Origin: a virus
DNA: 30,687 nt
Strand: one strand, 5' to 3'
IMG/VR virus record: IMGVR_UViG_3300047552_002923
Coordinates: 1-30,687 of that record
Shown here in pieces: positions 4,921-30,687 of this stretch. Both the position numbers and the translations under genes were made by a program. The stretch's first letter is position 1. The number at the start of each line of letters is the position of its first letter. The notes beneath the pieces are model-generated. The model searched no databases. It saw only the letters and a list, made by a program, of their open reading frames with translations, and was not told where the DNA came from.

Positions 4921-5565
4921 TTATATCCTCTTTATAACTTTATAATCATCGCTCGGTGTTATTGTGGAGTATATCCAAGTAACGGGAATAATAACTTTCT
5001 GAGCATCTTGGTAATTTAAATCAACCTGACCCATATTCTGAGGGTGTAAATCTCTAAATTCAAACTCCATAACTTTTTCATGATGGTTGTTTAATAGCAA
5101 TAATTTACCACTTATATAAAAGTTTTTATAATAATCCATGGTAGTAAGTTTATTGAATTCTTCAGGATTACTGGCAGCGTAGAACCAATATAGTAACATT
5201 CTATATATAAACCAATTTTCATCACCCATAACATTGGTATTAAGAGTACCAAATTCTAATTTACCAGTTATAGCCTTTAAAGCGGCAAATGAAGTGTCAA
5301 TTGTAGCAGTATATAGATTTAAATCTGGAAGAGTAACTGATTGTAGAAAAAGTGCAAAGTTTTGTGTATCCTGATTAGATTCACGTATATAATCTATTCC
5401 ACTTTTACTTATAGATTCAATAGTACCATCTAATTTAAATTTTTTATCATTTCCAAACTTTGACATTAAAAATGAAGAAGGTATTCTCTCCAAAACAAAT
5501 ATAAAATTATTATTATGTGCTTCGTTTAGAAATATTTCATTGTTGTTTACTACATGACAGGGCAT
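4921..5565 (-). CDS. Tail-tube-fold baseplate/tail protein (214 aa)
   Basis: ATG at 5563-5565, with AAGGAG directly upstream at the end of the previous gene. The order of motifs resembles the gp19 tail-tube fold: an early FIFVLERIP strand (compare FQVNIP in gp19), an FLQSVTLPD segment (compare RTTKLPQY), a central W-rich helix region (WFIYRMLLYWFY), then FEFRDLHPQNMGQVDL, matching the YQFVGLFPKTVGEIAL block of gp19, and a final strand VIIPVTWIYS. In T4, gp48 and gp54 at the tube-baseplate junction share this fold. I infer a tube-initiation or baseplate role; the exact T4 counterpart is uncertain and sequence identity is low. Confidence 0.6.
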   Translation of the reverse strand: MPCHVVNNNEIFLNEAHNNNFIFVLERIPSSFLMSKFGNDKKFKLDGTIESISKSGIDYIRESNQDTQNFALFLQSVTLPDLNLYTATIDTSFAALKAITGKLEFGTLNTNVMGDENWFIYRMLLYWFYAASNPEEFNKLTTMDYYKNFYISGKLLLLNNHHEKVMEFEFRDLHPQNMGQVDLNYQDAQKVIIPVTWIYSTITPSDDYKVIKRI

Positions 5566-12483: not shown

Positions 12484-12768
12484 TTACTTCCTAATAGGTG
12501 AATTCAAACCGCCCAGACCCCCGCCCCAAACATTTGCTATAGTCTTGCATATAATCTCAACTGCCTTCTTAGCAAACTCAAAGGTGTTCTTGATGAATTC
12601 ATTCTTGTTTTCGATTTCTTTCTCAAACTTCTCTTTGAAAATCTTTTTATAATACTCGAACTCTACACAAGATAATTCTTCAGCCTCCCATATATTTATA
12701 GAAGGCGAAGAATAAATTAGAATTTCGGCAATATCATTGAGCACCTGTTGATAGGCGCTCATCTGCAT
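12484..12768 (-). CDS. Short ORF downstream of the gp26-like gene; frameshift extension and/or own start (94 aa)
   Basis: This frame can be entered in two ways. It has its own ATG at 12766-12768 sharing a base with the upstream stop (TAATG), which suggests coupled reinitiation. It can also be reached by a -1 slip on the U-run at 12777-12784 of the upstream gene, which would add 97 residues to the first 260 of that protein (357-aa fusion). I reject the longer in-frame start at 12822 because it lies deep in the upstream gene and has no ribosome site of its own. The protein is acidic and mostly helical by eye, with a short Gly-rich end. Directly before the tape measure gene, this is the position of the second ORF (T of G/GT) in tail-chaperone pairs. 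Confidence 0.7.
   Translation of the reverse strand: MQMSAYQQVLNDIAEILIYSSPSINIWEAEELSCVEFEYYKKIFKEKFEKEIENKNEFIKNTFEFAKKAVEIICKTIANVWGGGLGGLNSPIRK
12693..12700 (-). promoter_or_regulatory. Possible intragenic late promoter motif (TATAAATA)
   Basis: Exact TATAAATA on the minus strand, but inside the coding sequence of the short ORF (Ser-Ile-Asn-Ile codons). It could supply extra transcript for the tape measure gene about 215 bases downstream, or be a chance match in AT-rich coding DNA. Confidence 0.3.
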
Positions 12769-12802
12769 TAACTGATAAAAAAAACTGCCACATTTGCCTC
12801 CT
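12739..12802 (-). promoter_or_regulatory. Candidate programmed -1 frameshift cassette
   Basis: In transcription order there are three elements. AGGAGG at 12802-12797 is an internal Shine-Dalgarno. After 12 bases comes a run of eight U (12784-12777) in which the last two frame-0 codons are UUU UUU preceded by U, so U UUU UUU has the canonical slippery phase. After a further 16 bases an inverted repeat at 12760-12739 can form an 8-bp stem (one G-U pair) with a 6-base loop. A -1 slip bypasses the UAA three codons later and enters the short ORF frame. The spacing of the first two elements resembles E. coli dnaX; the stem is further away than usual. Confidence 0.65.
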
Positions 12803-13556
12803 CGTCGGCAGTATGTCCACACTTCTCACACTTAAATTTGAATGGAAGTTTGACTCCAAACTCAGTGTTCCTTATATAATCGGTTATCTTTTCCAAGTCA
12901 CTGGCTCTCAAATTCTCAAAGAAATCTATCTTTTCTTCTATTTTCATTGGAACTTCTGCTATTATATCGTTCTGAGATATGAATATTTTATTAATATAAC
13001 CCGCCATCATGGTGAACTGTCTCTCAGACACTAATGTTATTTTCTTATCGAAGATAATCTTTTCCAACTTACGCTCATCAGAGCGCCTAATTGGTCCTAA
13101 AATAACCTTTATGTTACCGTTTGCAACCTCAATTGTAGATTGGTCTTCAGGACATTCATAGTTTTTTGTTACTATATTTTCCATATTAAATGGTATGTCT
13201 TTGTTAACATGTTCGCAACTTGGGCACTGGTGGGCAAGTTTTGCGGTATCGCCAGCAGCGGCCCTTCTTATAGACACGAGAATTTGATACCTTTCCTGGA
13301 CAGTTAAATCGTCTGTGCTACGATCACCATCCAATGTCACATATTTCTCTATAATCTCGTCAAAAACCCTCTGAATAAGTTTCTCGTCTTTAGATTCTAT
13401 AGACTTAAGAATATCTTTCTTATCTCTAACCTTCATCGGTTTAACAAATGCTTTATTACCAGTGTAACAAAGGTCTATTGCCATTTCATCTGCGCTTGGG
13501 GTGGCATACAATTTCTTCAAATCAGAAAAATTAAACGATGCTTTGTCGTCTGACAT
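12768..13556 (-). CDS. 26: gp26-like baseplate/tail assembly chaperone with two zinc-type CxxC pairs (262 aa)
   Basis: ATG at 13554-13556 with AGGAG about 7 bases upstream. Two CxxC pairs (residues 111-114, CPSC, and 243-246, CEKC) and the surrounding layout match the T4 gp26 baseplate family found in T4-like phages, where a zinc-binding core is flanked by helices. The gene directly precedes a short ORF and then the tape measure gene, which is the normal site of tail assembly chaperones. It ends AVFFIS-stop, and the FF codons are the slippery U-run. I infer that this short form and a frameshifted 357-aa form chaperone the tape measure protein, as gpG and gpGT do in lambda. Family assignment is fairly secure; the chaperone role is inferred from position. 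Confidence 0.7.
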   Translation of the reverse strand: MSDDKASFNFSDLKKLYATPSADEMAIDLCYTGNKAFVKPMKVRDKKDILKSIESKDEKLIQRVFDEIIEKYVTLDGDRSTDDLTVQERYQILVSIRRAAAGDTAKLAHQCPSCEHVNKDIPFNMENIVTKNYECPEDQSTIEVANGNIKVILGPIRRSDERKLEKIIFDKKITLVSERQFTMMAGYINKIFISQNDIIAEVPMKIEEKIDFFENLRASDLEKITDYIRNTEFGVKLPFKFKCEKCGHTADEEANVAVFFIS

Positions 13557-13606: not shown

Positions 13607-14866
13607 TTATTTCTTCGTTGATAACCAATCATATGGTCTTTTTATATTAGGCGCTCGGCGCCTATTGATGCTATTCGAAGAACCAGATCTATACCTTAAA
13701 GGTGGAGAATATCTAAAATTCATCCAGTTTAAAGCATCCATGAATGTCCAGGCGTCAGTGGTGTTAATATCACCATTTCTACCAAACGGATTTAGTTTCT
13801 TTATTTGGTCCTGAAGAAACCCAAGTGGGGATGGTAAAGTATTCCCACGACCGTTGTAGTCTTGGTCGGCATTCCCAGCTTTATCTTTTAGTAAACCTGG
13901 GTTTTTATTAATATCACCACCGCCAGTTACACCCGGAATGGCGGGGATTACGCTGGATACTGCGGATTTTAAAGCGTTTCCAAGTGCCGATCCAGCACCA
14001 CCAAGAGCATTAGATAGAGCCTTTGGCGCATCAGATAGAGCCGAACCACCGCTGTAATCTTTATCAGGATTCCCAGCTTTATCTTTTAGTAAACCATCGT
14101 TAATATTTATTTTTGCATCATTAACTTTTGTAGCATATGATTCGTCGCTTTTTTTCGCATATGAATATCCCGTAGCGTCCAGTTTTGCAAATTCTGGTGA
14201 CTTACCACTGGAGTATTCGGTGTTTACTATAAAGTAATCATAAGCAAATGTTACGGTGAATTTTCCAACATCCATATTGGAATGACTAAGTTGAACCTCA
14301 CCAACTTGCGACGGGTAAAGACCAAAGAATTCAAATCCACTAACAATATCACCATCTCTTGATAATTGTAAGACCTGGATTCCATTCTTTTTATAAGAAC
14401 CCGAAGTATATGGTATTTGTCTTATTGGATCATATATTAACGATTGCCAAGCTAAAAATTTATGCCTTACTTTATGATACTCATCGCATAGAAATGTAAC
14501 ATTCCAATCGTCAAAGGCGGCATTTCCCGCCATTTTATACTTGACTCCCTGGAACTCAAAGGATTTATCCTCTAATTTATATGATGGAAGTATTGTAGAT
14601 TCCGCCAACATTGTCAGCGATTGCGAATCATCATCTATGGGTGGAATAGATATTTGAAATAGATATGATCTTGAAAAATCACCTATCTTGTCTCTAAAAA
14701 CTTTTAGATTGACGCCGTTACTTGATGCCGATGATGCTGCACCGGGTAGCGATGGAACAGATATTCCGGCTGCCTTTAAAGCAGATGCTCCAGGAATGGA
14801 TGAACCAAAACCCCCTCCAGGTGCGGAGGGGGTTGAGCTGCTACTTGTAACAGAAATTAAAGGCAT
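13607..14866 (-). CDS. gp19 tail-tube paralogue with long low-complexity ends (419 aa)
   Basis: ATG at 14864-14866 with AAGGG about 10 bases upstream. Residues about 52-215 align by eye throughout with the true gp19 next door: LKVFRDKIGDFSRSYLFQISIPP against LYNFRTIIGDHSRAHLFQVNIPA, the FLAWQSLIYDPIRQI block against FLQWMGSVYDPERQV, and KFTVTFAYDYFIV against KFTVTFSYDYFAV. A 50-residue Ser/Gly/Ala/Pro leader and a roughly 200-residue tail are added, the latter with two GLLKDKAGN repeats and Ala/Gly-rich segments. The duplication suggests a specialised tube ring, such as a tube terminator or initiator, or a minor tube subunit with protruding appendages. It is not a decayed copy: the ORF is intact and the core is conserved. 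Confidence 0.85.
   Translation of the reverse strand: MPLISVTSSSSTPSAPGGGFGSSIPGASALKAAGISVPSLPGAASSASSNGVNLKVFRDKIGDFSRSYLFQISIPPIDDDSQSLTMLAESTILPSYKLEDKSFEFQGVKYKMAGNAAFDDWNVTFLCDEYHKVRHKFLAWQSLIYDPIRQIPYTSGSYKKNGIQVLQLSRDGDIVSGFEFFGLYPSQVGEVQLSHSNMDVGKFTVTFAYDYFIVNTEYSSGKSPEFAKLDATGYSYAKKSDESYATKVNDAKININDGLLKDKAGNPDKDYSGGSALSDAPKALSNALGGAGSALGNALKSAVSSVIPAIPGVTGGGDINKNPGLLKDKAGNADQDYNGRGNTLPSPLGFLQDQIKKLNPFGRNGDINTTDAWTFMDALNWMNFRYSPPLRYRSGSSNSINRRRAPNIKRPYDWLSTKK
13871..13897 (-). repeat. 27-bp direct repeat, copy 1 (encodes GLLKDKAGN)
   Basis: An exact 27-base match to the copy at 14069-14095, 198 bases (66 codons) away and in the same reading frame of the gp19 paralogue. Confidence 0.95.
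14069..14095 (-). repeat. 27-bp direct repeat, copy 2 (encodes GLLKDKAGN)
   Basis: Partner of the copy at 13871-13897. The flanking codons also encode related residues (D-x-D-Y), so the repeated protein motif is about 17 residues while the DNA identity is confined to 27 bases. Confidence 0.95.
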
Positions 14867-14902: not shown

Positions 14903-15541
14903 TCAAAGACCAAGGGTTCTTAGAAGACCACCAGTGCTGGCACCAACAATGAAGTTCTCACCCATGAACGGAATATCTGGACTGATTGCGGTTGGGATAG
15001 ATCCAGTCTTAGCACCGGCTCCAGCACGAACAGCAAAGTAATCATATGAGAATGTTACGGTGAATTTCTCAGGATCCTGATTTCCATGGTCGAGAGCAAT
15101 TTCACCAACTGTCTTTGGGAAGAGTCCTACAAACTGATAAACGAATACGGGTTCACCGATACGGTTTAACTGTGAAACAGTGACGTTATCAGACTTATAG
15201 AATAGTGGTGAACCTGCAACTTGACGCTCTGGATCGTAAACAGAACCCATCCACTGTAAGAATCTCAATCTGATTTCATGAGCGTCATCCAGGAGGAATT
15301 CACATTCCCAATCGCCACCCATTTCTGCGGAGGTGGCGACTTTGTAATTTAGACCCTGAAACGCTATATCAGTCGTTTGGATGCTATACTGTGGAAGCTT
15401 TGTAGTTCTGGCGAAACAAGACATTTCAATAGGATCAGAACCGATAGCGGGTATATTCACTTGAAATAGGTGAGCTCTTGAGTGATCACCTATTATGGTT
15501 CTGAAGTTATAAAGATTTCTATTTCCTGTTGGGAATGGCAT
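14903..15541 (-). CDS. 19: Tail tube protein gp19 (212 aa)
   Basis: ATG at 15539-15541 with AGGAG 7 bases upstream. The sequence carries the hallmarks of the T4 gp19 family: an NFRTIIGDHSRAHLFQVNIP start, RFLQWMGSVYDPERQV in the middle, VYQFVGLFPKTVGEIALDHGNQ and a FTVTFSYDYF strand at about 155-170. It is somewhat longer than T4 gp19 (163 aa), with a C-terminal extension after residue 170. Six-membered rings stack to form the inner tube through which DNA passes. It follows gp18 exactly as in T4. In T4 the portal gene 20 follows; here a gp19 paralogue and baseplate genes follow instead. Confidence 0.95.
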   Translation of the reverse strand: MPFPTGNRNLYNFRTIIGDHSRAHLFQVNIPAIGSDPIEMSCFARTTKLPQYSIQTTDIAFQGLNYKVATSAEMGGDWECEFLLDDAHEIRLRFLQWMGSVYDPERQVAGSPLFYKSDNVTVSQLNRIGEPVFVYQFVGLFPKTVGEIALDHGNQDPEKFTVTFSYDYFAVRAGAGAKTGSIPTAISPDIPFMGENFIVGASTGGLLRTLGL

Positions 15542-15578: not shown

Positions 15579-17600
15579 TCAGCCCTTACCAACAACTTCC
15601 GAGAAGCTAGTACCGGTTCCAACTGCGGTGAATATGAGTTTTATAAATTCTATGACACGATTTGGTTTGACCAATATCTCAGCAACGAATTCATTTCTAT
15701 CTATCACATCAGGGGTGTTGTTTGTACCATCTGCAACAACGAGATAATCAGTTACACCACGACGGGCCTTTATTTCAGCAAGGAATCCATTAACAAGTCC
15801 AGAGAATCTGGCTCTTGTTATATCATCATTAAACTCAAAGAGGAAGTATCTTGCCAACTTTTCTATCGAACGCTCCATGTGTAGGAACAGGCGACGAACG
15901 TTTATTCTATCGAAAGCACTTGGTTTAGCTTGAAGTGTCTTCTGACCCCATATAACAACACCCTGTCCAACAAAGTTTGGAATTGGGTTTATTCTGTTAT
16001 AGTAAAGTATATCTCTATGTGCCTTTGTTGGATTAAGAGCTACTCTATTGATTCCAGAGATAACACCACGATTCAAACCAGCAGGTGCCCACCATGGATC
16101 GTATTGGAAGTCAACACGAGCGATGATTGCGCCGACATATCCAGTCGATGGAACCCAGCGGAACTTCTCATTATAGAAATCGAATATCTCAAAATACTGT
16201 CCGTATATAGCGGAATAAGAAGAATTGATATTCAACTCGGTATTGATATAGTTTGCCATATTTGTATAAACTCTGGCAACTGGTTTGGCATTTGTGACAT
16301 TTATCATCTTACTAACTGGAACGTTGAGAAGTGCCATGCAATCTTTTCTAACATTCTTACAAATATCATCAAGTGAACGCTTCAATATAGTTGGATAATC
16401 TGGGTCTAAGAGAATATCAACTTCAATTTCTTCCTTATTAGTGAAGAAGGTTCTCCATCCGAGTTCAATTTCACCAACAAGGTCAAAGAGATTTTCGGTG
16501 AGAGTGTCGGCGCCAGCGAGGGTGCGGACGCCAGTTGAGAATATATCATAACCAGCGGCAGATTCTTCGCTATATCCAATGAAGAAGTAAATGTAATTTG
16601 AATTGCCATTTACCAATTCAGGCCCGAACATCTTATTGCCCTGACCATCACGCTTGTCTTTCAATTTAGAGCAAAGATACTTCTCTTGTAGAGTACCATC
16701 AGCGTAAACAAACAAAACAAATTCATCTTTCTCAGCGGTTATTTCAGGACCATATTCAAATGCTGTCCACTCAGCAAGGCGACCGCTGTCAACATCCCAT
16801 TCACCAGTTGGTGTTTCCGATGGAGTGAATATCAACTCATCACGAAGAATACTTCCTATTAGATAATCACCGGTATCAGTAAATATTGGATTCGATGATG
16901 GTGGGGGTGTTACTCCACCCCAAACTTCATAACCAGGATCGCCTGAAGTAGTACCTGGAGCATTTCCATAGTAATACTTATAGATTATAGCTTGTGTTTC
17001 CTGAGAAGTTGCCGCTTGAGCAAGTTCTGATTTAAAGGTCAAAAGGGTCTGATAATCTTCAGCGTTTACAACTGCAACCTGAACCCCATCATAATAAGGA
17101 CCCGCACCGACTCCGAATATATGGAAAGTCTCATTATTTCTTGCAATGTCTTGAGCGGTTTGATCAGTTCCACCATTTCCGAAGAAAGGAACTCCACCAT
17201 CTAAAGCGAGGGGAGTTGTATCTGGAATGTTATCATATGTTGCTGGGAAATATTTAGCTTCAAGTGGGGTTGCCCATTCGGAAACCGTTGTTCCACCAGA
17301 CAAACCTATTGTCAAACCTGAGCATAGTGTATCTTCATTCTCAACACGAACAACATAAAGTTGACTAGATCCCTCAAGGAACGCTTTAGCGGTGAAGAAA
17401 TGCCTATAATTAACATCATCAGGTTCACCGAATGTGTCAACATAGTCCTTCTCAGTATTAATGAGGGTTCTTACATTCAAAGGTCCACGACCGGATGCAA
17501 CAACAATGGCACCCGTGGACGATGTGACGGTGGGAATGCGAAGCGAAACATCGCGTTCGATTACATCTACACCAGGGGAAAGGTTTGCTGATCCAGCCAT
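15579..17600 (-). CDS. 18: Tail sheath protein gp18 (673 aa)
   Basis: ATG at 17598-17600 with AAGGAG upstream. The N-terminus (LSPGVDVIERDVS, followed by TSSTGAIVVASGRGP) is the classic start of contractile sheath proteins. The C-terminus, with IWGQKTLQ, FDRINVRRLFLHMERSIEK and LARYFLFEFND, is the conserved domain that forms the intertwined sheath lattice. Length is close to T4 gp18 (659 aa). The middle insertion-rich domains are phage-specific. Sheath contraction drives the tube through the host envelope. Two late promoter motifs lie in the 85-base gap before it, in keeping with its high copy number. Confidence 0.97.
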   Translation of the reverse strand: MAGSANLSPGVDVIERDVSLRIPTVTSSTGAIVVASGRGPLNVRTLINTEKDYVDTFGEPDDVNYRHFFTAKAFLEGSSQLYVVRVENEDTLCSGLTIGLSGGTTVSEWATPLEAKYFPATYDNIPDTTPLALDGGVPFFGNGGTDQTAQDIARNNETFHIFGVGAGPYYDGVQVAVVNAEDYQTLLTFKSELAQAATSQETQAIIYKYYYGNAPGTTSGDPGYEVWGGVTPPPSSNPIFTDTGDYLIGSILRDELIFTPSETPTGEWDVDSGRLAEWTAFEYGPEITAEKDEFVLFVYADGTLQEKYLCSKLKDKRDGQGNKMFGPELVNGNSNYIYFFIGYSEESAAGYDIFSTGVRTLAGADTLTENLFDLVGEIELGWRTFFTNKEEIEVDILLDPDYPTILKRSLDDICKNVRKDCMALLNVPVSKMINVTNAKPVARVYTNMANYINTELNINSSYSAIYGQYFEIFDFYNEKFRWVPSTGYVGAIIARVDFQYDPWWAPAGLNRGVISGINRVALNPTKAHRDILYYNRINPIPNFVGQGVVIWGQKTLQAKPSAFDRINVRRLFLHMERSIEKLARYFLFEFNDDITRARFSGLVNGFLAEIKARRGVTDYLVVADGTNNTPDVIDRNEFVAEILVKPNRVIEFIKLIFTAVGTGTSFSEVVGKG

Positions 17601-17685: not shown

Positions 17686-20600
17686 TCATCCCCTTCCCAA
17701 ACTATCCCTAAAGTGCTGTATTTCCGAATCTAAATCAGCAGAAGCACCAAACGATTTCATAAATGTTTGCATAACTTCTTCATCATTTTGCTGTTCATCA
17801 TTCAAATGAGCAGTTTGAACATTTTTACTGAGCATGAAATGTAAATGGTCTTCCCAATATTTAGACCTAAGCGCATATGCTGCCCAATATCCAGATGCCA
17901 CAATATCATCGTGAAAATTTCTACCCTGTCTTGCCTGGAATACACCAGTCTTCACTTCTTCAAAATAAGAAAGTTCAGTAACCATATCGGAAGAATTTAT
18001 TATCATCTTTTTAGTTTCAATATCATCTTTAAAATAAGATAACGCCAAAGGTTTCGTTTTAACAGATGCGTTTACCCCATATTCACCTTTGTCATAATCG
18101 TACCAAGTATTATCATAACCATCTTCATAATAGATATTGTGGACAACGGTGTGCCCAAGATGATTATTTTCTATAATAACAACCGCGTTATTGTATTTTT
18201 TACATATCTCTAATATTTTATCTTTAAAGTCAAAAACAGATATATCGTTTCTACGGAACAATGCCACCTGTTCATATGTTTGTTTAGTGTGCCAATCAGT
18301 GGCATCATACACATTTGCAACATGATAGTCAGTATTAGCGCCTTTAGCAACGTCACAAGATACCAAATATATTCTATTTGGGGCGGGTTTCTTCCACACA
18401 TAAAATCCCTCTTCCGGATAGAATGGTGGATCTATGGTTTTCATATTCTCCAACACCTCACCGTCTATAAGTGTGTATGAGGATCCAGAAAACGCACATG
18501 AATATTCTTGAGCGAATTTTACTTTGCCTATTGCCTGTATCTGTGTTTCTTTCCAAGACTCATCGCGATCAGGGTGGGCGCTCCAAGGGATTTTCATGGT
18601 CTTCCACGAAGTATTTTTTGCAGAGGTAGCGTTCTTCCATAACTCGTAGAATTTACCAGCGGTTCCGTTTGGGGTTGATACTACTACGATATTACCTCCA
18701 GTGTTACTTCCTAATATTCCATTTTGGAGGAAAGTATGTGTTTTTGGACAAGTAAAATCATAAGTATCACAGAATCCACTACTTATATTCTTTACTCTCA
18801 GATAAACACACTTATTATCCACAAATTCTCTTAAATACCCACTTCCTGTTAAATTTGATATTTTTTGCAGGGTATCGATGGGTATATTTTTTGTATTTCC
18901 ATTTAGAATTTTTTCAACCCTAACACCATGTCTTCTGAACCAATAAGCATTCTTACCACTCTCTTGAATTGATAATTTTATGGCATTGATAACATAATCA
19001 TTGGATGGTATATATTCTTGTTTATTTTTATTGTTTTCTTTTATGTTAACACAAATGAGTCTGTTTAACTTACGATGGATACGAAGTCCGAAATTCTTCA
19101 ATTCACCGGCATAACACCGTGATATGGTTAAAATATAAGAATCTTTTAGGGATTTTAATACGGTTCCTTGTGGTAATATATACTTACCTATCTTTTTAGA
19201 TTTATCTATTTTGTTTCTTCTGATTATGGAAACTATTCCCATGTTTATTAGGAGTAGTTGTATTCCAGACAGAATTTTTCTGGAAGTCGATGATATAGTC
19301 GTGTCTCCATGCTTATTAACATGCCCATCAGCGTCTATATATCCTGCTATAAATTGCTGCTGTAGTTCCTTCGGCACAGTAAACACTATCTTTGGGATAT
19401 ATTTGGTATCACATTTCTTTTCAGCAACATCACCGAGAAGATGTTTAAAAAATCTATAAGTTGCATTATCAGAAGATAGTTTTATTGATTTTTTTATTAC
19501 TTCGAACTTTAAATGTGGACTGTTTAAATAAACATCTCTAAACTCATTATCAGAATTTGATATAAGTATCCTATTTTGTGATACCCATCCCTCACCAATA
19601 TATCCACCCAACATATACATGATGTCATTTGTTAAACTTGGTATATTTAAATTGTATTTCCTGTTATTAGGGTAAACACCGTTATCATGATAATTTATTT
19701 CTTTAAAACTACCATATATATTCATACCTAAGTCAACTCTTACAGAATCACCAACTTTTAAATCTTTACTTTTCACCATCCCGACACCGTTATTGTTAAG
19801 AGTCATTATTGGATGATTTAATGTAGATTCATGTATAAATCCATATTCAGTTTCTATTATTTTTGTTTCGGAGTCAGGAGATACATAAAAATGACTGACA
19901 TCCTCCATTCCATTTTTTCCCCACACTGAGAGATTTTTTGTTTCAAAATAATCTCCCTTTTTACAATTAATTGGTATATAGTCACCTATCTCACGATATC
20001 CATCTTTTGTGAGAACCATAGTGTCCTTTGGTAAACATGAAAGAGTGGGATAATTTGCTACCCAAAATTGCTCTGCTATATTTTCAGCGACGAACGCAAA
20101 CTCGTCGAGAAACAACAAAGATATAGATTCGCCTCTTATAGCATCTGGCGATGTTGCTCTTGCAAAAATTCTACTCTCATTCTCAAATTTCATTTCCAAT
20201 TGATCGTATTTTTTAACTCCCGGTTTTAGCCAGGCGGGTAACATTTCATAACCCTTCTTTATATCATCCACGATACCAATGGCGGTTGATTGTTTGTTAG
20301 CAAGAATAGCAATCGTCTTGGAAGGGTTAAATATAGCAAACCAAAGAAGATATATAGATGCGCAGGTTGTATTGTGAGATACTATATTATTAGCGTAGTA
20401 TTGATGACTGTCAGTGCTTACTTCCACATCATACATATTATCTTCATAACCAAGATTATCGCATTTTATACATTTATGAAACCCTGTATCGGTTTTAATT
20501 TCATCACCAATACAAACATCTTTTAACCAAACTTCTTGCGTCTCGGTTTCATTTACTTTTTTATAAACTATATGCTCATCGGCGCCTTTTAGACTGTCCC

Positions 20601-20739
20601 CATTTTCAAGTTCCAGATACCAACATTCATATTTTTCGGTTTTCATTACTTTACTTATAGGTACAAACCCCTCGGGAGATTTTATCAAGTATTTCTCGGG
20701 AACACTATAAATTTCTTCAAACTTTTTTAGTTTCTGCAT
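17686..20739 (-). CDS. 17: Large terminase gp17, C-terminal part: split-intein C-fragment, ATPase, LAGLIDADG intein and nuclease (1017 aa)
   Basis: ATG at 20737-20739 with AGGA upstream, inside the end of the preceding nuclease gene (23-base overlap). In order: residues 1-123, the C-fragment of a split intein ending SHN; 124-234, TerL sequence starting at the TT of the Walker A motif, with Walker B LLFLDE near 208-213; 235-679, a complete intein; 680-1017, TerL with the coupling motif STPNG and a nuclease domain whose acidic residues appear as D796 (SCDVAKG), E857 (IIENN) and D944 (FHDD). Without splicing this polypeptide has no P-loop lysine. Joined to the 83-residue N-extein and freed of both inteins it gives about 532 aa. 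TerL pumps DNA into the head and cuts concatemers. Confidence 0.93.
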   Translation of the reverse strand: MQKLKKFEEIYSVPEKYLIKSPEGFVPISKVMKTEKYECWYLELENGDSLKGADEHIVYKKVNETETQEVWLKDVCIGDEIKTDTGFHKCIKCDNLGYEDNMYDVEVSTDSHQYYANNIVSHNTTCASIYLLWFAIFNPSKTIAILANKQSTAIGIVDDIKKGYEMLPAWLKPGVKKYDQLEMKFENESRIFARATSPDAIRGESISLLFLDEFAFVAENIAEQFWVANYPTLSCLPKDTMVLTKDGYREIGDYIPINCKKGDYFETKNLSVWGKNGMEDVSHFYVSPDSETKIIETEYGFIHESTLNHPIMTLNNNGVGMVKSKDLKVGDSVRVDLGMNIYGSFKEINYHDNGVYPNNRKYNLNIPSLTNDIMYMLGGYIGEGWVSQNRILISNSDNEFRDVYLNSPHLKFEVIKKSIKLSSDNATYRFFKHLLGDVAEKKCDTKYIPKIVFTVPKELQQQFIAGYIDADGHVNKHGDTTISSTSRKILSGIQLLLINMGIVSIIRRNKIDKSKKIGKYILPQGTVLKSLKDSYILTISRCYAGELKNFGLRIHRKLNRLICVNIKENNKNKQEYIPSNDYVINAIKLSIQESGKNAYWFRRHGVRVEKILNGNTKNIPIDTLQKISNLTGSGYLREFVDNKCVYLRVKNISSGFCDTYDFTCPKTHTFLQNGILGSNTGGNIVVVSTPNGTAGKFYELWKNATSAKNTSWKTMKIPWSAHPDRDESWKETQIQAIGKVKFAQEYSCAFSGSSYTLIDGEVLENMKTIDPPFYPEEGFYVWKKPAPNRIYLVSCDVAKGANTDYHVANVYDATDWHTKQTYEQVALFRRNDISVFDFKDKILEICKKYNNAVVIIENNHLGHTVVHNIYYEDGYDNTWYDYDKGEYGVNASVKTKPLALSYFKDDIETKKMIINSSDMVTELSYFEEVKTGVFQARQGRNFHDDIVASGYWAAYALRSKYWEDHLHFMLSKNVQTAHLNDEQQNDEEVMQTFMKSFGASADLDSEIQHFRDSLGRG
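18703..20037 (-). other. Cis-splicing LAGLIDADG intein in TerL (445 aa)
   Basis: It begins at Cys235 (CLPKDTMVLTKDGY, block A), has block B GFIHESTLNHPIMT, two LAGLIDADG motifs (LGGYIGEGW near 377-385 and IAGYIDADGH near 464-473) with both acidic residues kept, and ends in block F/G TYDFTCPKTHTFLQNGILGSN before Thr680. Precise removal restores YPTLS joined to TGGNIVVVSTPNG, a continuous terminase motif. The penultimate residue is Ser rather than the usual His. Residues about 578-640, between the nuclease and block F, look like an extra helix-turn-helix DNA-binding module (NIPIDTLQKISNLTG). Confidence 0.92.
20371..20739 (-). other. Split intein C-fragment (IntC, 123 aa)
   Basis: Residues 1-123 of the downstream terminase gene. 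A block B-like segment (SLKGADEHIVYKK) and block F/G (YDVEVSTDSHQYYANNIVSHN region, near 103-123) are present, ending His-Asn before Thr124. Block A is absent here and found only on the N-fragment gene. This is a long C-fragment paired with a short N-fragment, the reverse of the common split and like the phage terminase intein AceL-TerL. Confidence 0.92.
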
Positions 20740-21916
20740 TTTTTATCCTATTTATTATATCACATGCAATAGTTTCTACAACTTTATCAGGATTTTGTTT
20801 ATAATCTCTCTCCAAAACGTGAATTATTGTTATCCCAGGGTTGTTTTCTTTTATTTTTAATTCTCTTATGTTGTCTCTTTCTTTATTCCCACGCTTCTCA
20901 CCGTGCCAATAATCACCATCGAACTCAACACAATAGTTTATAGAAGGAACGTAGAAGTCTAAGAAAAAACAACTCTGCCGATCTACACTCGTTGTCATAA
21001 ATTCATAATTATCGTTCAAAGAAACTATTTCGCAGTTTGGTTTTGTGGCGTAATATGTTTTTACATTTAGATTAGATATACGTTTATCAATATCAATGAA
21101 TAAACTTTGCGATATTTTAGAATAACCCCTACCATTCCCCATTTTTGCTCTTTGTATTCTTTCTATTTCTTCCACGGGTTTACTTAGTAAGGTTTGCTGC
21201 CACCTTTTCTGCCTATCTTCCCAAATCTTCAATCCTTCAATTTTCCCATGTTTTTCTATCAGATTCTCTTTAGTGAATGTTCGTTGTCTTTCTTTTCTTT
21301 TTTGTTTTGCTTCTTCTTCGCCATATCCTTTACTTATCCAGTATTCCAGTTGAGATGGATTGAGTGAAAAAGTAGGGTCTTGTTTTTTCTTTTTAGATAC
21401 AGTTTCCATTGCTTTTTTTACTCTATTAGTATTCTTGGAATACCATGTTGTAGAACACGAGAAACTACAAAAATCATGAAACCCGGTGTCAAATCTAAAA
21501 CCGGTTTCGTTTCCACATTCTTTGCAACGCATTTCACTTTTATCTTTTATTATATATTTAACATAATAATCTTTTGGAGTTATATCATGATTTTTAGAAA
21601 GGTGCCTTGATAACCAGTTTCTCCCAACAAATGTTTCGCCACAAATTTCACATTTTATGTCTCGTGGTTTTTGATCACGATTTTCCTTATCAATTTGGGA
21701 TTGAGTTTTCATTCCATGAACCTTTGCTTTATGTTCCGATAAAACTCTTTTAGATAAAAACATTTCTCCACAAATATCACATGCAATAGTTTCGACACCT
21801 TCATGTTTTATCTTATATTCTACCATTTTCATTTGATGTTTTGATAAAAGATGTTGATTAAAAGAAGATTTAGGAACTTCTTTGTTGCATTCTTTACACA
21901 AGATAAACTCTGTCAT
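20717..21916 (-). CDS. Zinc-finger/Vsr-like homing endonuclease between the terminase halves (399 aa)
   Basis: I choose the ATG at 21914-21916 because AGGAG lies 6 bases before it; the ATG two codons upstream sits directly on the AGGAG. Three C2H2-type fingers occupy about residues 7-110 (CKEC, CDIC and CEIC each followed by H-x3-H or similar), then a fourth CKECG...C cluster near 131-154. A coiled, basic linker containing an LNPSQLEYWISKGY segment follows. The C-terminal third (about 310-375) has FLDFYVPSINYCVEFDGDYWHG and IIHVLERDY, the layout of Vsr-like nucleases (EDxHD family). A free-standing nuclease gene between intein-split gene halves is the known fractured-gene arrangement. It probably cuts terminase alleles lacking the insertion. 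Its own late promoter lies just upstream. Confidence 0.88.
   Translation of the reverse strand: MTEFILCKECNKEVPKSSFNQHLLSKHQMKMVEYKIKHEGVETIACDICGEMFLSKRVLSEHKAKVHGMKTQSQIDKENRDQKPRDIKCEICGETFVGRNWLSRHLSKNHDITPKDYYVKYIIKDKSEMRCKECGNETGFRFDTGFHDFCSFSCSTTWYSKNTNRVKKAMETVSKKKKQDPTFSLNPSQLEYWISKGYGEEEAKQKRKERQRTFTKENLIEKHGKIEGLKIWEDRQKRWQQTLLSKPVEEIERIQRAKMGNGRGYSKISQSLFIDIDKRISNLNVKTYYATKPNCEIVSLNDNYEFMTTSVDRQSCFFLDFYVPSINYCVEFDGDYWHGEKRGNKERDNIRELKIKENNPGITIIHVLERDYKQNPDKVVETIACDIINRIKNAETKKV
20757..20776 (-). repeat. 20-bp direct repeat, 3' copy
   Basis: An exact match to 21774-21793, 1017 bases away (a multiple of three). Both lie in the same frame of the nuclease gene, encoding ETIACDI. Confidence 0.9.
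21774..21793 (-). repeat. 20-bp direct repeat, 5' copy
   Basis: Partner of 20757-20776. This copy falls in the second zinc finger, while the other falls in the C-terminal helix after the nuclease domain. Confidence 0.9.
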
Positions 21917-21935
21917 AAACATCTCCTATTATAAG

Positions 21936-21943
21936 TATTTATA
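21936..21943 (-). promoter_or_regulatory. T4-type late promoter between terminase halves
   Basis: Exact TATAAATA in the gap between the N-fragment terminase gene and the nuclease gene. Transcription would start near 21929 and cover the nuclease gene and the downstream terminase half, separately from the upstream half. Confidence 0.7.
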
Positions 21944-21969
21944 CCCGCTTATCATATAGGGAAACGAGT

Positions 21970-22320
21970 TTATTCAACCTTTATTTTTTCAAAGAAATCC
22001 CCTATCTTCATTTTAGTCACCTCACCGGTTTCTTTGTTCATTATTTCTACAATAGTGTCAAAATGAACACATTTACCTAATTGTCGTGCTGCCATAATAA
22101 GATTCTGACGGTTATTCCTCATATTTTCCAACATCTCTCGTTGGAATGGAAATAGGTTTATTACCTCTTCACCTCTAACGGGATGAATAATCGTGTAATA
22201 CTTTTCAGCAAAATACGTAATATCAGAAGCACACCTTGCCAATTCTTGCAACATATGAGCTGTAAACTGTATTTGCCTACCCGGCTTAACAATATATCTA
22301 TCATCATACTGAATTGGCAT
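21970..22320 (-). CDS. 17: Large terminase gp17, N-terminal part with split-intein N-fragment (116 aa)
   Basis: ATG at 22318-22320 with GGGAG upstream, inside the 3' end of the preceding nuclease gene (17-base overlap). Residues 1-83 are the terminase N-extein, ending AARQLGK, the same as the Walker A block SRQLGKTT of T4 gp17 up to its lysine. Residues 84-116 are an intein N-fragment starting CVHFDTIVEI and ending at a stop codon. The next terminase residues, TT, occur only in the separate downstream gene after IntC. The product alone cannot bind ATP and must be trans-spliced to the downstream product. The N-terminal region preceding the P-loop includes the usual adenine-binding context (FPFQREML). 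Expression of the two halves must be balanced. Confidence 0.93.
   Translation of the reverse strand: MPIQYDDRYIVKPGRQIQFTAHMLQELARCASDITYFAEKYYTIIHPVRGEEVINLFPFQREMLENMRNNRQNLIMAARQLGKCVHFDTIVEIMNKETGEVTKMKIGDFFEKIKVE
21973..22071 (-). other. Split intein N-fragment (IntN, 33 aa)
   Basis: It starts at Cys84 of the N-terminal terminase gene. Block A is CVHFDTIVEI, followed by a short charged segment and KMKIGDFFEKI. This resembles the N-fragment of AceL-TerL (C-V-x-x-D-T-x-V-E then K-I-K-I-x-D). The fragment holds only block A, so the split lies between blocks A and B. Confidence 0.9.
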
Positions 22321-24016
22321 TAATATTCTCCCAAATATATCTTATTTTACCACAATCATATATTTTATAGTAATTACTTCTACTCATAGCCATTTCTTCA
22401 GTTTCACCGTCCTCAATCATGTTCTTTTTCTTGAGGGCATCTTTTCTGAATCCAAATCTATGGTATCTTATAAGAGATGTCTTATCAACATAAAAGTAGC
22501 TAGGAGGCGATACACCATCATTTTTAAATCCAAGCACATCATACAAATTGCCATCTGAAAAAGAGTAGTCGGCATATGAAACTATATTTTTTGGATTATG
22601 AACATTAATGAAATGTTTAAGTAGTTTGGATGCTCCACCAGTTACAATCGAGTCCCTAACAGTTGCATATCTGACCAACTCCCATTCATACTTTTTTCTC
22701 TTGACTACATTTGAGAAAGACATTAAAGCCACCAGAACTTTATCGTAATATAATCCATAAGAAACTTTTGAAAACGTCCACCCCTGAATATGATTTTGTT
22801 CGTAAAAATCCTTTTGTGCTTTAATATCTTCAACTAAATGTATTTCACATTTCCTAGCAAATATTTTTGAACTGGTATATCCCAATATATTTCTTATTTT
22901 ATATTTTATAATGTCTTTTTTGTGTATCCACTCATCTTCAAATAGATGTATTAATCTTATGTTTTTATCGGCACATTTAAGTGTCTTATCTAGGTGGTAT
23001 GAATTTGTCTTTGATTCGGAGTTGTGCCAAAATACTCCGTTGAATTCTATTCCTATTCTCTTTTCCGGAATGAAAATATCTATCTCTTTTCCAATGATAT
23101 CTCTAACATTAGATTGTATATCTCCATCATAAAATGATTTTATATATTCTATTATTTCCTTTTCATATGATGAAACCGATGACTGGAGCGGGTGGCAAGT
23201 CAAACAAAGCGGTATGTTTCTCTTTATTCTATTTCCTATGTGTTTGGTGCTATATTCTGATATTGATTGGCAATCTTTGCATTTTATAGATATATTTTCA
23301 CTTTGGTATGCGTCTATTTCACAATTAAAGTGCGGAAGAGTTTCTTCTAAAAATTTAATGTATTTTTTCTTCTTGGATTCTATGGTATTTTTTCTAAGTT
23401 TTATAACTTCTTCTTCACTCTTCAATGACCAAGTTTTCTTAAACCTTTCACGGTTTGTAAAGTTTTTATCACCATACTTATTTAATTTAGTTTCTTTTGC
23501 CTTTTCAATATTAACATAATTACAGTCGCCATATTTCTCCATTTTTGTTTTCATTATACTATCTTTTATATCTTTATTATTCATCCTGCAATTTAAATCG
23601 CTACAATATTCGTGATATCCTTTAGATATACTAATAAACCCCTTTTCTTTCCCACATTCAGCACATACATTCTCATTATCTTTAATAAGATACATATCAT
23701 AGTATTGTTTACCATTTAAATTATGTTCTTTTATTAAATGGTTACTAACAAATACTTTATACCCTGTATATGGCGTTTTTTTCTGACAGTGTAAACACAC
23801 TATTCCATTTGAAAGATGTTCTTTTATCTTGCGGTTTATTTGTTCGTTTTTGTTGTTTTTATCAGCAATTAGTTTATCCACTTCGTCTTTATTGAAGTAG
23901 AAAGTGTTGTCAATTTTTATAAATGATAACTTTTTTACTTTACGCCAATAATCAACATTCTGAGATTTCACATTACAATATTCAGCAACTTCCGACGTTT
24001 TCATAGTATATTTCAT
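22304..24016 (-). CDS. Vsr-like homing endonuclease with GNAT-like C-terminal domain (570 aa)
   Basis: Lies between gp16 and the first terminase half and ends 17 bases inside the latter. Residues 5-50 form a MerR-like helix-turn-helix (MKTSEVAEYCNVKSQNVDYWRK). Several Cys/His clusters follow (about 74-98, 118-143), then KYGDxN-type repeats near 160-190 like NUMOD3 DNA-binding motifs, and another zinc pair (246-274). The nuclease core is at about 284-375: EIDIFIPEKRIGIEFNGVFWH and LIHLFEDEW. Residues about 385-570 (NHIQG, VTGGASKLLKHF, YADYSFSDG, LYDVLGF) resemble a GNAT acyltransferase-like fold. The ATG at 24014-24016 has no Shine-Dalgarno; Met5 (24004) is an alternative start. A late promoter lies just upstream. 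It is probably a mobile nuclease targeting the terminase region. Confidence 0.87.
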   Translation of the reverse strand: MKYTMKTSEVAEYCNVKSQNVDYWRKVKKLSFIKIDNTFYFNKDEVDKLIADKNNKNEQINRKIKEHLSNGIVCLHCQKKTPYTGYKVFVSNHLIKEHNLNGKQYYDMYLIKDNENVCAECGKEKGFISISKGYHEYCSDLNCRMNNKDIKDSIMKTKMEKYGDCNYVNIEKAKETKLNKYGDKNFTNRERFKKTWSLKSEEEVIKLRKNTIESKKKKYIKFLEETLPHFNCEIDAYQSENISIKCKDCQSISEYSTKHIGNRIKRNIPLCLTCHPLQSSVSSYEKEIIEYIKSFYDGDIQSNVRDIIGKEIDIFIPEKRIGIEFNGVFWHNSESKTNSYHLDKTLKCADKNIRLIHLFEDEWIHKKDIIKYKIRNILGYTSSKIFARKCEIHLVEDIKAQKDFYEQNHIQGWTFSKVSYGLYYDKVLVALMSFSNVVKRKKYEWELVRYATVRDSIVTGGASKLLKHFINVHNPKNIVSYADYSFSDGNLYDVLGFKNDGVSPPSYFYVDKTSLIRYHRFGFRKDALKKKNMIEDGETEEMAMSRSNYYKIYDCGKIRYIWENINANSV

Positions 24017-25676: not shown

Positions 25677-26462
25677 TCACCAATGTCCCCAATCCATTTT
25701 ATCCTTACCACTTCTACTTATTATACCACGACCACCGGGCATCACTGGATTTCCATTCTCATCAACTCCATCTGCTATGTGCTGAATAGCATCGTTATCA
25801 CCATGATACGATCCGCCTTTATTGTCTTTAGTAAGACCTGGGACCTTATATTTCTCTTTTATTTCACCATCAACATTTATCAAGTCCGCTGGAGAGTTTG
25901 GAAGCACATTGCCCTCGCTATCAGTATGTCCATATCTTTCACCATCACCAATCTCAGCGGGAGATATCTCACGCTCCTTAGCAATGATGGTATATGTTGT
26001 TCTATGTCCGAAAATGTTACCCTGAACACCAAGAGTAGATTCGGTTACATGCATAACTTCAAAGACCTGATTCGTTATATCTTTTACGAAAGTAAATTGA
26101 TCAGATGGAAGAGGTTTCCTGCCAACAATATCTCTAAATGATTGATGGTGGAGATGCATGGTGAATTCTACTTTATTCGTCATACCATATTGGTTAAACA
26201 AAACATTTTCTTGGACAGAACCACCTTCAATAATCGCAGTAATCATAACCTTTCTAGGATATTTTTTGTTAGGATCTTCCCCGAATACTTTATTCATTGG
26301 ACTGGTTATATCAACCTCCACTGGATACCATTCACACGGAACACCATATATATTAAATATTTCATTGGCAATATCGTCATAAAATTGAAACTCCGAGGAG
26401 TTCGACATCGCCCCTTTATATTGATCCCAAAAGTTCTTTTGATCTAAGTTATTAATTGACAT
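25677..26462 (-). CDS. 14: Neck protein gp14 (261 aa)
   Basis: ATG at 26460-26462; the ribosome site is weak (GGA about 7 bases upstream) and lies inside the end of the preceding nuclease gene, which overlaps it by 19 bases. The protein matches gp14 neck proteins in length (T4: 256 aa) and layout: FYDDIANEIFNIYGVPCEWYPV near 27-48, a VMITAIIEGG strand, and FTMHLHHQSFRDIVGRKPLPSDQF near 100-120. Residues after about 175 form a polar C-terminal tail. With gp13 it forms the collar to which tail and whiskers bind. The native ribosome site may have been altered by insertion of the nuclease gene. Confidence 0.9.
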   Translation of the reverse strand: MSINNLDQKNFWDQYKGAMSNSSEFQFYDDIANEIFNIYGVPCEWYPVEVDITSPMNKVFGEDPNKKYPRKVMITAIIEGGSVQENVLFNQYGMTNKVEFTMHLHHQSFRDIVGRKPLPSDQFTFVKDITNQVFEVMHVTESTLGVQGNIFGHRTTYTIIAKEREISPAEIGDGERYGHTDSEGNVLPNSPADLINVDGEIKEKYKVPGLTKDNKGGSYHGDNDAIQHIADGVDENGNPVMPGGRGIISRSGKDKMDWGHW

Positions 26463-27532
26463 ATCGTATCCAATATATTATGTATATCACTGTCATTATA
26501 CCAGTATGGTATAACTATCAGATTTATACCGTTACTTTTACAATATTCATTTAGCAAATTGTCTCTATTTTTTTGCTTTTCAAAATTCTTTGCAGCGTGT
26601 TCTGAAGAAATACCACCGAATCTTATAGGTTTATAATGTTGCTCTCCATTACGCTCTATTATAATTTTCTCATTTATGTAAAAATCTACGAATACATTTT
26701 TATTGTCTATTTTTATATTATACTGTGGTATATACTTTATATTCTTTGATATTAGTATATCTTTTATCTTATTTTCAGATTTCTTGTAGCAGCAGGGACA
26801 CCCACGGTCATCGTTTATTATCCTACTTGGATCGGCGTACCATTTATTATCACACTTCTTACAACCGAAAAGAATCTTTCTTTTAGATCCGATATAGTCA
26901 CCTATTCTATATATGGTTTTATGTTTCAAAAGATAGTCCACTCTTTCGTTAGTGTATCTTTCTTTACCGGAACACCTTGGACAACCGTTACCAGAGATTT
27001 TCTTTAGATTTGATAATCTAGCATTCCATATATATCCGTCTCTTTTACAGCATACTTTTATTTTGTCATTACATCCAGTAAACTCACCAACCCGATATAA
27101 TTGTTTATTGTAAAGAATTAAGTCAACATCGGTTAATGGTGTTACTTCACTCCCACCAACATTACAGTTTGTACATCCTTGGTTGTCATTAATGATATGC
27201 GAAGGTGAATTTTTCCACACTTGGTTGCACTTATTACATTGAATTTTTATAGAAACGTTCATATTGATATATTCATCAATAATAGTTAAATTTCTTTTTT
27301 TAAATTCAGTTTTTATAGTATGTATATCTTTTTTATTATTACCTTTACACTTTGCGCACCCTTTTCCCATATATAAATTACTATATCTACACATCCATTG
27401 ATGAGAATCATGAACACATTCCACTAAAAATGAAGTAGATGTATTAACAAAATCCCCCAATCTTCGTATTCCCCTCTCTGTGAGAATACTATCCACTTTT
27501 TCTACAGAAATTCTTTTGTTAATACTAGGCAA
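26444..27532 (-). CDS. Homing-type endonuclease with four zinc-ribbon-like repeats (362 aa)
   Basis: The start is TTG at 27530-27532, supported by AGGAG 8 bases upstream within the last codons of gp13. Four related units of about 61-64 residues end in G-C-x-x-C at 58-62, 119-123, 183-187 and 244-248; units two and four also carry an internal CxxC followed by W. These look like tandem zinc-ribbon/treble-clef DNA-binding modules. Residues about 252-345 form a PD-(D/E)xK/Vsr-like nuclease with FVDFYINEKIIIERNGEQHY and a later LIVIPYW strand. It separates gp13 from gp14, overlapping both, so it probably homes into that boundary. Its zinc-repeat plan differs from the other nucleases here. Confidence 0.85.
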   Translation of the reverse strand: MPSINKRISVEKVDSILTERGIRRLGDFVNTSTSFLVECVHDSHQWMCRYSNLYMGKGCAKCKGNNKKDIHTIKTEFKKRNLTIIDEYINMNVSIKIQCNKCNQVWKNSPSHIINDNQGCTNCNVGGSEVTPLTDVDLILYNKQLYRVGEFTGCNDKIKVCCKRDGYIWNARLSNLKKISGNGCPRCSGKERYTNERVDYLLKHKTIYRIGDYIGSKRKILFGCKKCDNKWYADPSRIINDDRGCPCCYKKSENKIKDILISKNIKYIPQYNIKIDNKNVFVDFYINEKIIIERNGEQHYKPIRFGGISSEHAAKNFEKQKNRDNLLNEYCKSNGINLIVIPYWYNDSDIHNILDTICQLIT

Positions 27533-29577: not shown

Positions 29578-30687
29578 TTATTTTCTAATATACCTTATAT
29601 GACCACAGTCATATATCCGATATAGTCCTAGTTTCTCTGAAAGAGTTGTCTCGGTGTCGTCGTTGGTGTATGGAATACCTAAAGATATACACTTCTTGAC
29701 AAGTTTCTTTTTATCAAATCCAAACTTATGCTTGCGGCACCATCGGGTGTCAACACCACAATAAGTATAGTCAACATCTAGTATTTTGTCTTCTAAAAAT
29801 CCTATTTTTTTATAGAATTCACTGTTACCCCATCTATTATCGGAGAATGTAACTATAGAAATATCTTTATATATTTTAATGAAGTTATTTAATAGTTTTC
29901 CAGCACCACCAGTTACATTACAACCCTTCACGGCAGCATATCTTTGTAACTCCCACTGACAGTCTCCACTTTTTATTTTACCATGTCTAATGGCGAATGA
30001 CATCATACATACTATATTACCGTTATACTTTAACCCATAGCAAAGACCAGACTTCGAAGGTGATCCTTGAATGTGGTTCGCATTAAAAAAATCCCTTGCA
30101 GAATAACTATCAACTTCAACTATTTCACATTTACGAGCATAAACCTTATCGCCACTTTTACCTAATATACTTGTTATTCTAGATTTACATATATCTGTTT
30201 TGTTTTTCCACTCATCATCAAATATAGTTATCAAACGATAACCAACTTCATTACACATATCATATTTCTTTTTATGGTAACTTCTATCATTCTTAAATTT
30301 TGAAGAGTGCCAAATAACCCCACAGAATTCAAATGCCACTTTTTTAGAGTGACATACTATATCTAATTCATATGGTTCTATAGTATTTTTATCGTTTTGG
30401 ACTGCTTCTGGTTCTATGGATTTTATAAAGTCGTAGAATTCACTTTGACTCTTTCTTTTTGTTGAGGTATAACATTTATCACAAGTAATCTTATAGTAGT
30501 TTCCAGTTATACTTGCCCAACTTTTTTTACACACATCGCCACAATTATTACAAACAAATTGAATTGGAGTAGTGATGTCGGTGTATTCTAACTTATTTTT
30601 AGGGTAGAAATTACAATCAATACATATATTTCTAATTTTCTCACACACTCTTATAGAGTCAGTATTCTTTCTACATCCTAAACACCC
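29578..30687 (-). CDS. Vsr-like homing endonuclease with GNAT-like domain, 5'-partial
   Basis: The frame stays open to the right edge. A GTG at 30646-30648 could be taken as the start, but the 13 codons upstream of it read GCLGCRKNTDSIR, which includes another CxxC that fits the zinc clusters following (CIDC, CNNCGDVC, CDKC). I therefore think the true start lies outside the window. The nuclease core has ELDIVCHSKKVAFEFCGVIWH and LITIFDDEW. The C-terminal domain has NHIQG, VTGGAGKLLNNF, FSDNRWGNSEFYKKIGF and YRIYDCGHIRYI, the same order as the end of the 570-aa nuclease at 22304-24016, so the two are paralogues. It is probably a mobile nuclease inserted upstream of the neck gene cluster. Confidence 0.87.
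   Translation of the reverse strand, partial: GCLGCRKNTDSIRVCEKIRNICIDCNFYPKNKLEYTDITTPIQFVCNNCGDVCKKSWASITGNYYKITCDKCYTSTKRKSQSEFYDFIKSIEPEAVQNDKNTIEPYELDIVCHSKKVAFEFCGVIWHSSKFKNDRSYHKKKYDMCNEVGYRLITIFDDEWKNKTDICKSRITSILGKSGDKVYARKCEIVEVDSYSARDFFNANHIQGSPSKSGLCYGLKYNGNIVCMMSFAIRHGKIKSGDCQWELQRYAAVKGCNVTGGAGKLLNNFIKIYKDISIVTFSDNRWGNSEFYKKIGFLEDKILDVDYTYCGVDTRWCRKHKFGFDKKKLVKKCISLGIPYTNDDTETTLSEKLGLYRIYDCGHIRYIRK

Follow-up and report, generated by a model that had tools for sequence, protein, structure and literature searches.

In phage lambda, a short and a long tail assembly chaperone, gpG and gpGT, are produced by means of an overlapping -1 frame in front of the tape measure gene, and the heptamer at which the frame is changed is G GGA AAG. 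Such frameshifted tail chaperones were reportedly treated by Xu, Hendrix and Duda in 2004. A comparable signal occurs in dnaX of E. coli, where the heptamer A AAA AAG is combined with an upstream Shine-Dalgarno (SD)-like element and a hairpin. In T4-like phages, tail assembly chaperone genes are said to have been identified by Vladimirov, Gautam and Davidson, in Virology 566:9-15, in 2022.

Poly-T slippery sites in the TAC-N genes of T4-like phages are credited to this study of 2022 in a passage of the 2025 paper on phage Adele, which also describes a conserved -1 frameshift in the chaperone locus of Vandenendeviridae and Andersonviridae (PMC12846349). Furthermore, a passage on the program PRFect cites the same study for T4-like phages in which a short chaperone gene is accompanied by a long, fused one (PMC10885494). 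These citing passages name no gene, and gp26 and gp51 would be the genes meant. In the initial annotation of the DNA analysed here, a frameshift had been regarded as undescribed for a T4-type gp26 gene; since poly-T sites in T4-like chaperone genes are, according to the passages cited, already in print, this claim of novelty has to be withdrawn.

The window, i.e. the whole stretch of DNA that was analysed, is a virus record of 30,687 bases, and all features treated here lie on its (-) strand. It very probably contains a tail assembly chaperone gene with a -1 frameshift that belongs to a contractile-tailed phage of the T4 superfamily. Among the systems mentioned, the gp26/gp51 pair of T4 has the PF12322 family in common with the window gene. 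T4 possesses two separate genes, whereas in the window one gene with a -1 frameshift would do both, and the C-terminal domain of the window is longer and has diverged. Lambda shows the same overlapping -1 frame before the tape measure gene and the same short and long chaperone, but the gene of the T4 superfamily is larger and possesses CxxC motifs; the two are compared here by layout. The Adele locus, which belongs to phage families other than that of the window, is likewise compared by layout: the TAC-N gene in front of the tape measure gene carries a poly-T motif, GTTTTT, at its end (PMC12846349). With dnaX the window shares an upstream SD-like element, a slippery run and a hairpin, whereas gene and heptamer are different and the hairpin of the window lies further downstream.

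Organization of the locus

The ORF of the gp26-like protein ends with GCA GTT TTT TTT ATC AGT TAA, in which an in-phase heptamer U UUU UUU is part of a run of eight U residues (12777-12784, (-) strand; Table 1). The protein possesses two CxxC motifs (residues 111-114 and 243-246). The 3' end agrees with the initial annotation, and the same holds for the -1 frame, which had been described as open for 97 codons and as ending just before the tape measure gene (stop at 12484; tape measure ATG at 12477), for the TAATG at which the short ORF could start, and for the lengths of the two products predicted from the ORFs (262 aa, 30.1 kDa; -1 fusion 357 aa, 41.2 kDa). The order on one strand, with tail tube gene, gp26-like gene, -1 ORF and tape measure gene, fits the placement of frameshifted chaperones of the lambda G/GT kind.

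Table 1. Positions of the features of the putative chaperone locus and its neighbours in the window.
Feature	Position	Strand	Evidence
Tail sheath protein (T4 gp18-like)	15579..17600	(-)	phrog_23 tail sheath, E 2.2e-103
Second tail tube protein	14903..15541	(-)	phrog_45, E 4.4e-37
Tail tube protein (gp19-like), directly upstream of the gp26-like gene	13607..14866	(-)	phrog_45, E 6.4e-40
TAC-N: gp26-like (T4_baseplate) gene, 262 aa	12768..13556	(-)	PF12322, phrog_150, predicted structure
Shine-Dalgarno-like AGGAGG, presumed -1 stimulator	12797..12802	(-)	12 nt upstream of the U run; duplex energy; excess in clusters
Slippery heptamer U UUU UUU, in phase with gp26	12777..12783	(-)	sequence; in-phase site kept in 99/100 loci
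TAC-C: extension in the -1 frame (97 codons following FF, and stop codon)	12484..12777	(-)	open frame; third-position substitution bias
ATG within the stop/start overlap TRATG, at which reinitiation is possible	12766..12768	(-)	present in 4/4 window-lineage sequences
Downstream hairpin, 5' arm	12753..12760	(-)	inverted repeat; fold z about -3; comparison of 4 sequences
Downstream hairpin, 3' arm	12739..12746	(-)	see 5' arm
Tape measure protein, 1046 aa	9337..12477	(-)	phrog_1272 tail length tape measure, E 1.9e-25, and others

The tail tube family phrog_45 was matched by three ORFs of the window, namely 4921-5565 (-) and the two listed in Table 1. Further upstream, the gene of the terminase large subunit appears to be interrupted (17686-22320, (-)): an N-terminal fragment (21970-22320) is followed by an ORF within the terminase region which putatively encodes a homing endonuclease (20717-21922, (-)), and a 1017-aa ORF showed, beside terminase matches, an intein splicing domain and a LAGLIDADG match within approximately residues 281-676. 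Four homing or HNH endonuclease-like ORFs are spread over about 10 kb of a head-tail module (20717-21922, 22304-24016, 26444-27532 and 29578-30687, all (-)).

Conservation of the slippery site

For the comparison with relatives, gp26 was located by profile. From 115 gp26 rows, two T4 rows were left out and duplicates, defined by identical 120 bases around the stop codon, were removed. The resulting 100 loci comprise the window, 87 loci from IMG/VR and 12 named phages; L020, which ran off its contig, and L021, without a match, are absent from the gp26 set. The IMG/VR part includes 80 loci that represent the best 80 of 595 confirmed relatives. Cyanophage-type sequences dominate such a set, and therefore counts are also given per cluster.

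An in-phase heptamer U UUU UU(U/C/A) near the gp26 stop codon, with the -1 frame open beyond it, was found in 99 of the 100 dereplicated loci. Its last base is U in 58, C in 39 and A in 2 of these. Past the gp26 stop codon the -1 frame of the 99 loci extends over at least 54 codons (median 61), while the median of the +1 frame is 5 codons; two of the -1 ORFs of the gp26 loci run off their contigs. Elsewhere in the same loci, only 20 of 324 Phe-Phe pairs are encoded by such a heptamer, and in nine genes of the window an in-phase U UUU UU occurs at 3 of 5459 codon positions. All members keep the heptamer in 41 of 42 clusters formed at 50% gp26 identity and in 11 of 12 clusters formed at 40%. The slippery site in the gp26-like gene of the window is thus present beyond chance. 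In 90 of the 99 loci, the heptamer is followed by the zero-frame stop codon either directly or after 3 nt, and this stop codon is perhaps part of the signal.

When IMG/VR was scanned, with the window protein and also with a small alignment as queries, closer relatives of the window were found on five contigs, corresponding to three distinct sequences (80%, 76% and 64% identical to the window). All three share with the window the U8 run, the TRATG overlap and the relation of the frames. In the initial annotation, a comparison of related phages had been suggested, and relatives that keep both ORFs and lose the U run had been named as an argument against a -1 programmed frameshift in the gp26-like tail chaperone before the tape measure gene. 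U run and frame relation are kept in 99 of the 100 loci, and the comparison supports the frameshift. The lone exception is Vibrio phage D528 (L112, 2348-3304), in which gp26 ends with CTT TTC AAG TAA and has no canonical heptamer at this position, but the -1 ORF including its MPW motif is still present. In this phage, another shift site or another mechanism may be used.

The domain encoded in the -1 frame

Downstream of the slip site, the substitutions between the window and its three relatives, counted at codon positions 1/2/3 of the -1 frame, amount to 10/2/29, 15/10/50 and 23/20/53. They are concentrated at the third position, and the -1 frame is therefore a coding one.

The -1 domain of the window gave no match in Pfam, none among the PHROGs up to E 0.1 and none by tblastn up to E 1 in the phage collection, and its match with the cyanophage profile had an E as high as 6.1. 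The cyanophage -1 ORF, on the other hand, matches phrog_634 (E 3.1e-23), which it has in common with the C-terminal part that follows the PF12322 domain in T4 gp51; this part of gp51 also matches a profile built from -1 ORFs of this kind. When profiles were aligned with hhalign, the C-terminal domain of the window reached a probability below 1% with both the cyanophage profile and the gp51 C-terminus, and 84.7%, a weak profile match, with a mixed set of other phages. A link of the C-terminal domain of the window to gp51 would depend on this last match.

Putative stimulatory elements

The AGGAGG noticed in the initial annotation 12 bases upstream of the U run was found at this distance, and its best duplex energy with the anti-SD (-11.7 kcal/mol) is the strongest among the nine loci listed. 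In 71 of the 99 loci, if relatedness is ignored, SD-like pairing 8-16 nt upstream exceeds the strength that the codons would predict. Per cluster, an excess over the synonymous expectation was found in 31 of 41 clusters (mean -5.19 versus -4.10 kcal/mol, p 2e-4); with regard to relatedness this is the safer test, yet the clusters themselves are still related to each other. SD-like pairing was not found in Paride and RAS14. According to a review, the distance of an SD element that promotes -1 shifting is 9-14 nt (PMC5009743), and the 12 nt of the window fall within this range of dnaX-type shifting. In the cluster comparison, the signal peaks at about 7-9 nt from the heptamer.

Hairpins that stimulate -1 frameshifting usually begin about 5-9 nt downstream of the heptamer. 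The 8-bp inverted repeat which had been noticed 16 bases downstream was confirmed as a stem of 8 bp with one G-U pair, starting 16 nt after the U run; this spacer is longer than usual and represents the weak item of the signal. In L026 the stem is kept at a distance of 19 nt, which is likewise outside the usual range, and the fold downstream in L004 is unremarkable (z -0.44 to -0.75). In the four sequences of the window lineage, all 32 cells, i.e. eight stem pairs in each sequence, can form. Two pairs are changed on both sides; this covariation is only suggestive, because 28 of 500 shuffles also reached two double changes. Across the loci, the potential for RNA folding peaks just downstream of the heptamer (mean z -1.46 from +5; below -2 in 39 of 98 loci), and z is near zero at -70 and +80.

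The SD-like and structural signals fit a ribosomal -1 frameshift with stimulators resembling those of dnaX. Judged from these sequence features, the AGGAGG upstream and the hairpin downstream probably raise the rate of slippage in the window.

Family and predicted fold of the gp26-like protein

The gp26-like protein of the window is a member of PF12322 (E 1.6e-25; 90.5 bits at a Pfam cut-off of 24.5) and also matched phrog_150, annotated as baseplate hub (E 1.3e-23). AlphaFold models were obtained for the window gp26 (pLDDT 83.7) and a cyanophage-type gp26 (pLDDT 89.2). The N-terminal domain of the window model showed the HK97 tail assembly chaperone 2ob9 as top match (Z 6.5 over 85 residues), followed by 5ir0 with Z 5.5 and then by a row with Z 3.0. 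The top matches of the cyanophage-type model were 3fgx (Z 7.7), 2ob9 (Z 7.4, likewise in the N-terminal domain) and 3klu (Z 7.0), and the next row had a Z of 4.6. Beside the HK97 chaperone, the best matches thus comprise small proteins resembling it. All of these Z values are below 8, and the matches to the chaperone fold are therefore only suggestive. The chaperone-like matches of the predicted models nevertheless stand clear of the rest, and they agree with the gene order.

A plain Foldseek search of the PDB yielded no match with an E of 0.001 or below. Among viral models, 68 matches were obtained; of the 50 listed, most are baseplate hub proteins or phage proteins that are uncharacterised or without a name. 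The gp26 profile was also used to search the sequences of solved structures, and the only two matches, at E 0.4, are meaningless.

Alternative explanations

The overlap of stop and start codon could also point to translational coupling, in which ribosomes would reinitiate at the overlapping ATG after the TAA and produce a free C-terminal protein of 94 aa instead of a fusion. The initial annotation had suggested that reinitiation could coexist with the frameshift. For the window lineage this could hold, as the TRATG overlap is kept in four of four sequences. If GTG and TTG are included, a possible start codon lies before or at most 30 nt past the slip site in 55 of 98 -1 ORFs; in the other 43, none of the three codons is found in this region. 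With ATG alone, however, the first start codon of 75 of the 98 -1 ORFs lies over 30 nt downstream of the slip site, and one further locus is without any ATG. Reinitiation could therefore not make the whole conserved domain and is not the general route. In addition, -1 ORFs that lack early starts still resemble one another from FF onwards, the AGGAGG is situated 28 nt from the ATG and thus too far away to serve it, the U run is left unexplained, and T4 gp51 holds both domains in one protein. As an explanation of the locus in place of the frameshift, coupling is improbable.

Even smaller is the chance that the fusion arises during transcription, i.e. that RNA polymerase adds one U on the U8 run and some of the mRNAs carry the fusion in frame. 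A run of eight T residues, as in the window, is present in 42 of the 99 loci. In 41 of the 99 loci, the run comprises only six T residues, and the same is true of 23 of 41 clusters if the shortest member is taken; transcriptional slippage is therefore unlikely as the shared mechanism, and tandem slippage of the ribosome is favoured. The phase of the heptamer and the SD-like element are ribosomal signatures as well. An error of sequencing or assembly, behind which the true gene would be one continuous ORF or two unrelated genes, has to be considered for a metagenomic contig, and a homopolymer of eight bases is a common site of indels. The same U8 run and the same frames were, however, found in the three other distinct sequences of the window lineage on five contigs, and heptamer and -1 layout occur with different bases in 11 of the 12 named phages. 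Such an error is hardly credible.

Proposed mechanism

From the features of the locus, we infer that most ribosomes would terminate at the TAA and release the gp26-like protein of 262 aa. A minority would slip by -1 on U UUU UUU, with both tRNA-Phe molecules pairing again in the -1 frame, and would continue to a fusion protein of 357 aa carrying the C-terminal domain of 97 residues. These products are best read as a putative pair of chaperones, with gp26 in the role of the short one (TAC-N) and the fusion made by frameshifting in that of the long one (TAC-NC), by analogy with lambda G/GT. In analogy to gpG and gpGT, it is assumed that the short form would coat the tape measure protein, and that the rare long form would bring in the tail tube subunits. 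Chaperones of this kind would not be part of the virion.

Evolution of gp26 and gp51

Both gp26 and gp51 of T4 belong to PF12322, and T4 thus contains two genes of this family, which are separate and in opposite orientation. One PF12322 gene is present in each of the 12 other named phages and in each of the four window-lineage records, which are possibly fragments. In Erwinia phage Cronus (Tevenvirinae), separate genes are annotated as in T4, whereas Aeromonas phage AS-szw (L114; Straboviridae, Emmerichvirinae) has only one PF12322 gene, with the layout of a frameshift. The comparison of AS-szw with T4 and Cronus may date the split of the gene inside the Straboviridae.

It is likely that the -1 frameshift, together with conserved SD-like and hairpin stimulators, is ancestral in the T4 superfamily, and that its two products later became fixed as the separate genes gp26 and gp51 in T4 and phages close to it. 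Read in this way, the ancestral frameshift would probably span the cyanophages, the jumbo phages of Pseudomonas and Stenotrophomonas and the uncultivated lineage of the window.

By Sullivan et al. (2010), the gp51 of cyanophages is described as having about 20% of the usual length and lacking the first approximately 200 residues (PMC3037559). If the frameshift is real, a fusion would explain this short gp51, which would be the part of the fusion encoded in the -1 frame. The short gp51 ORFs in the named cyanophage-type records look like such -1 tails and could be annotated as joined genes.

The findings support the use of a frameshift in the tail chaperone gene of an uncultivated lineage of phages that is remote from the named ones. 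The comparative set, with 99 of 100 loci keeping the site, illustrates the degree to which the mechanism is fixed, and two candidate stimulators are indicated. T4, finally, looks like an exception in which the products of the frameshift have been hard-wired in two genes, and it may serve as a case for studying what the frameshift buys.
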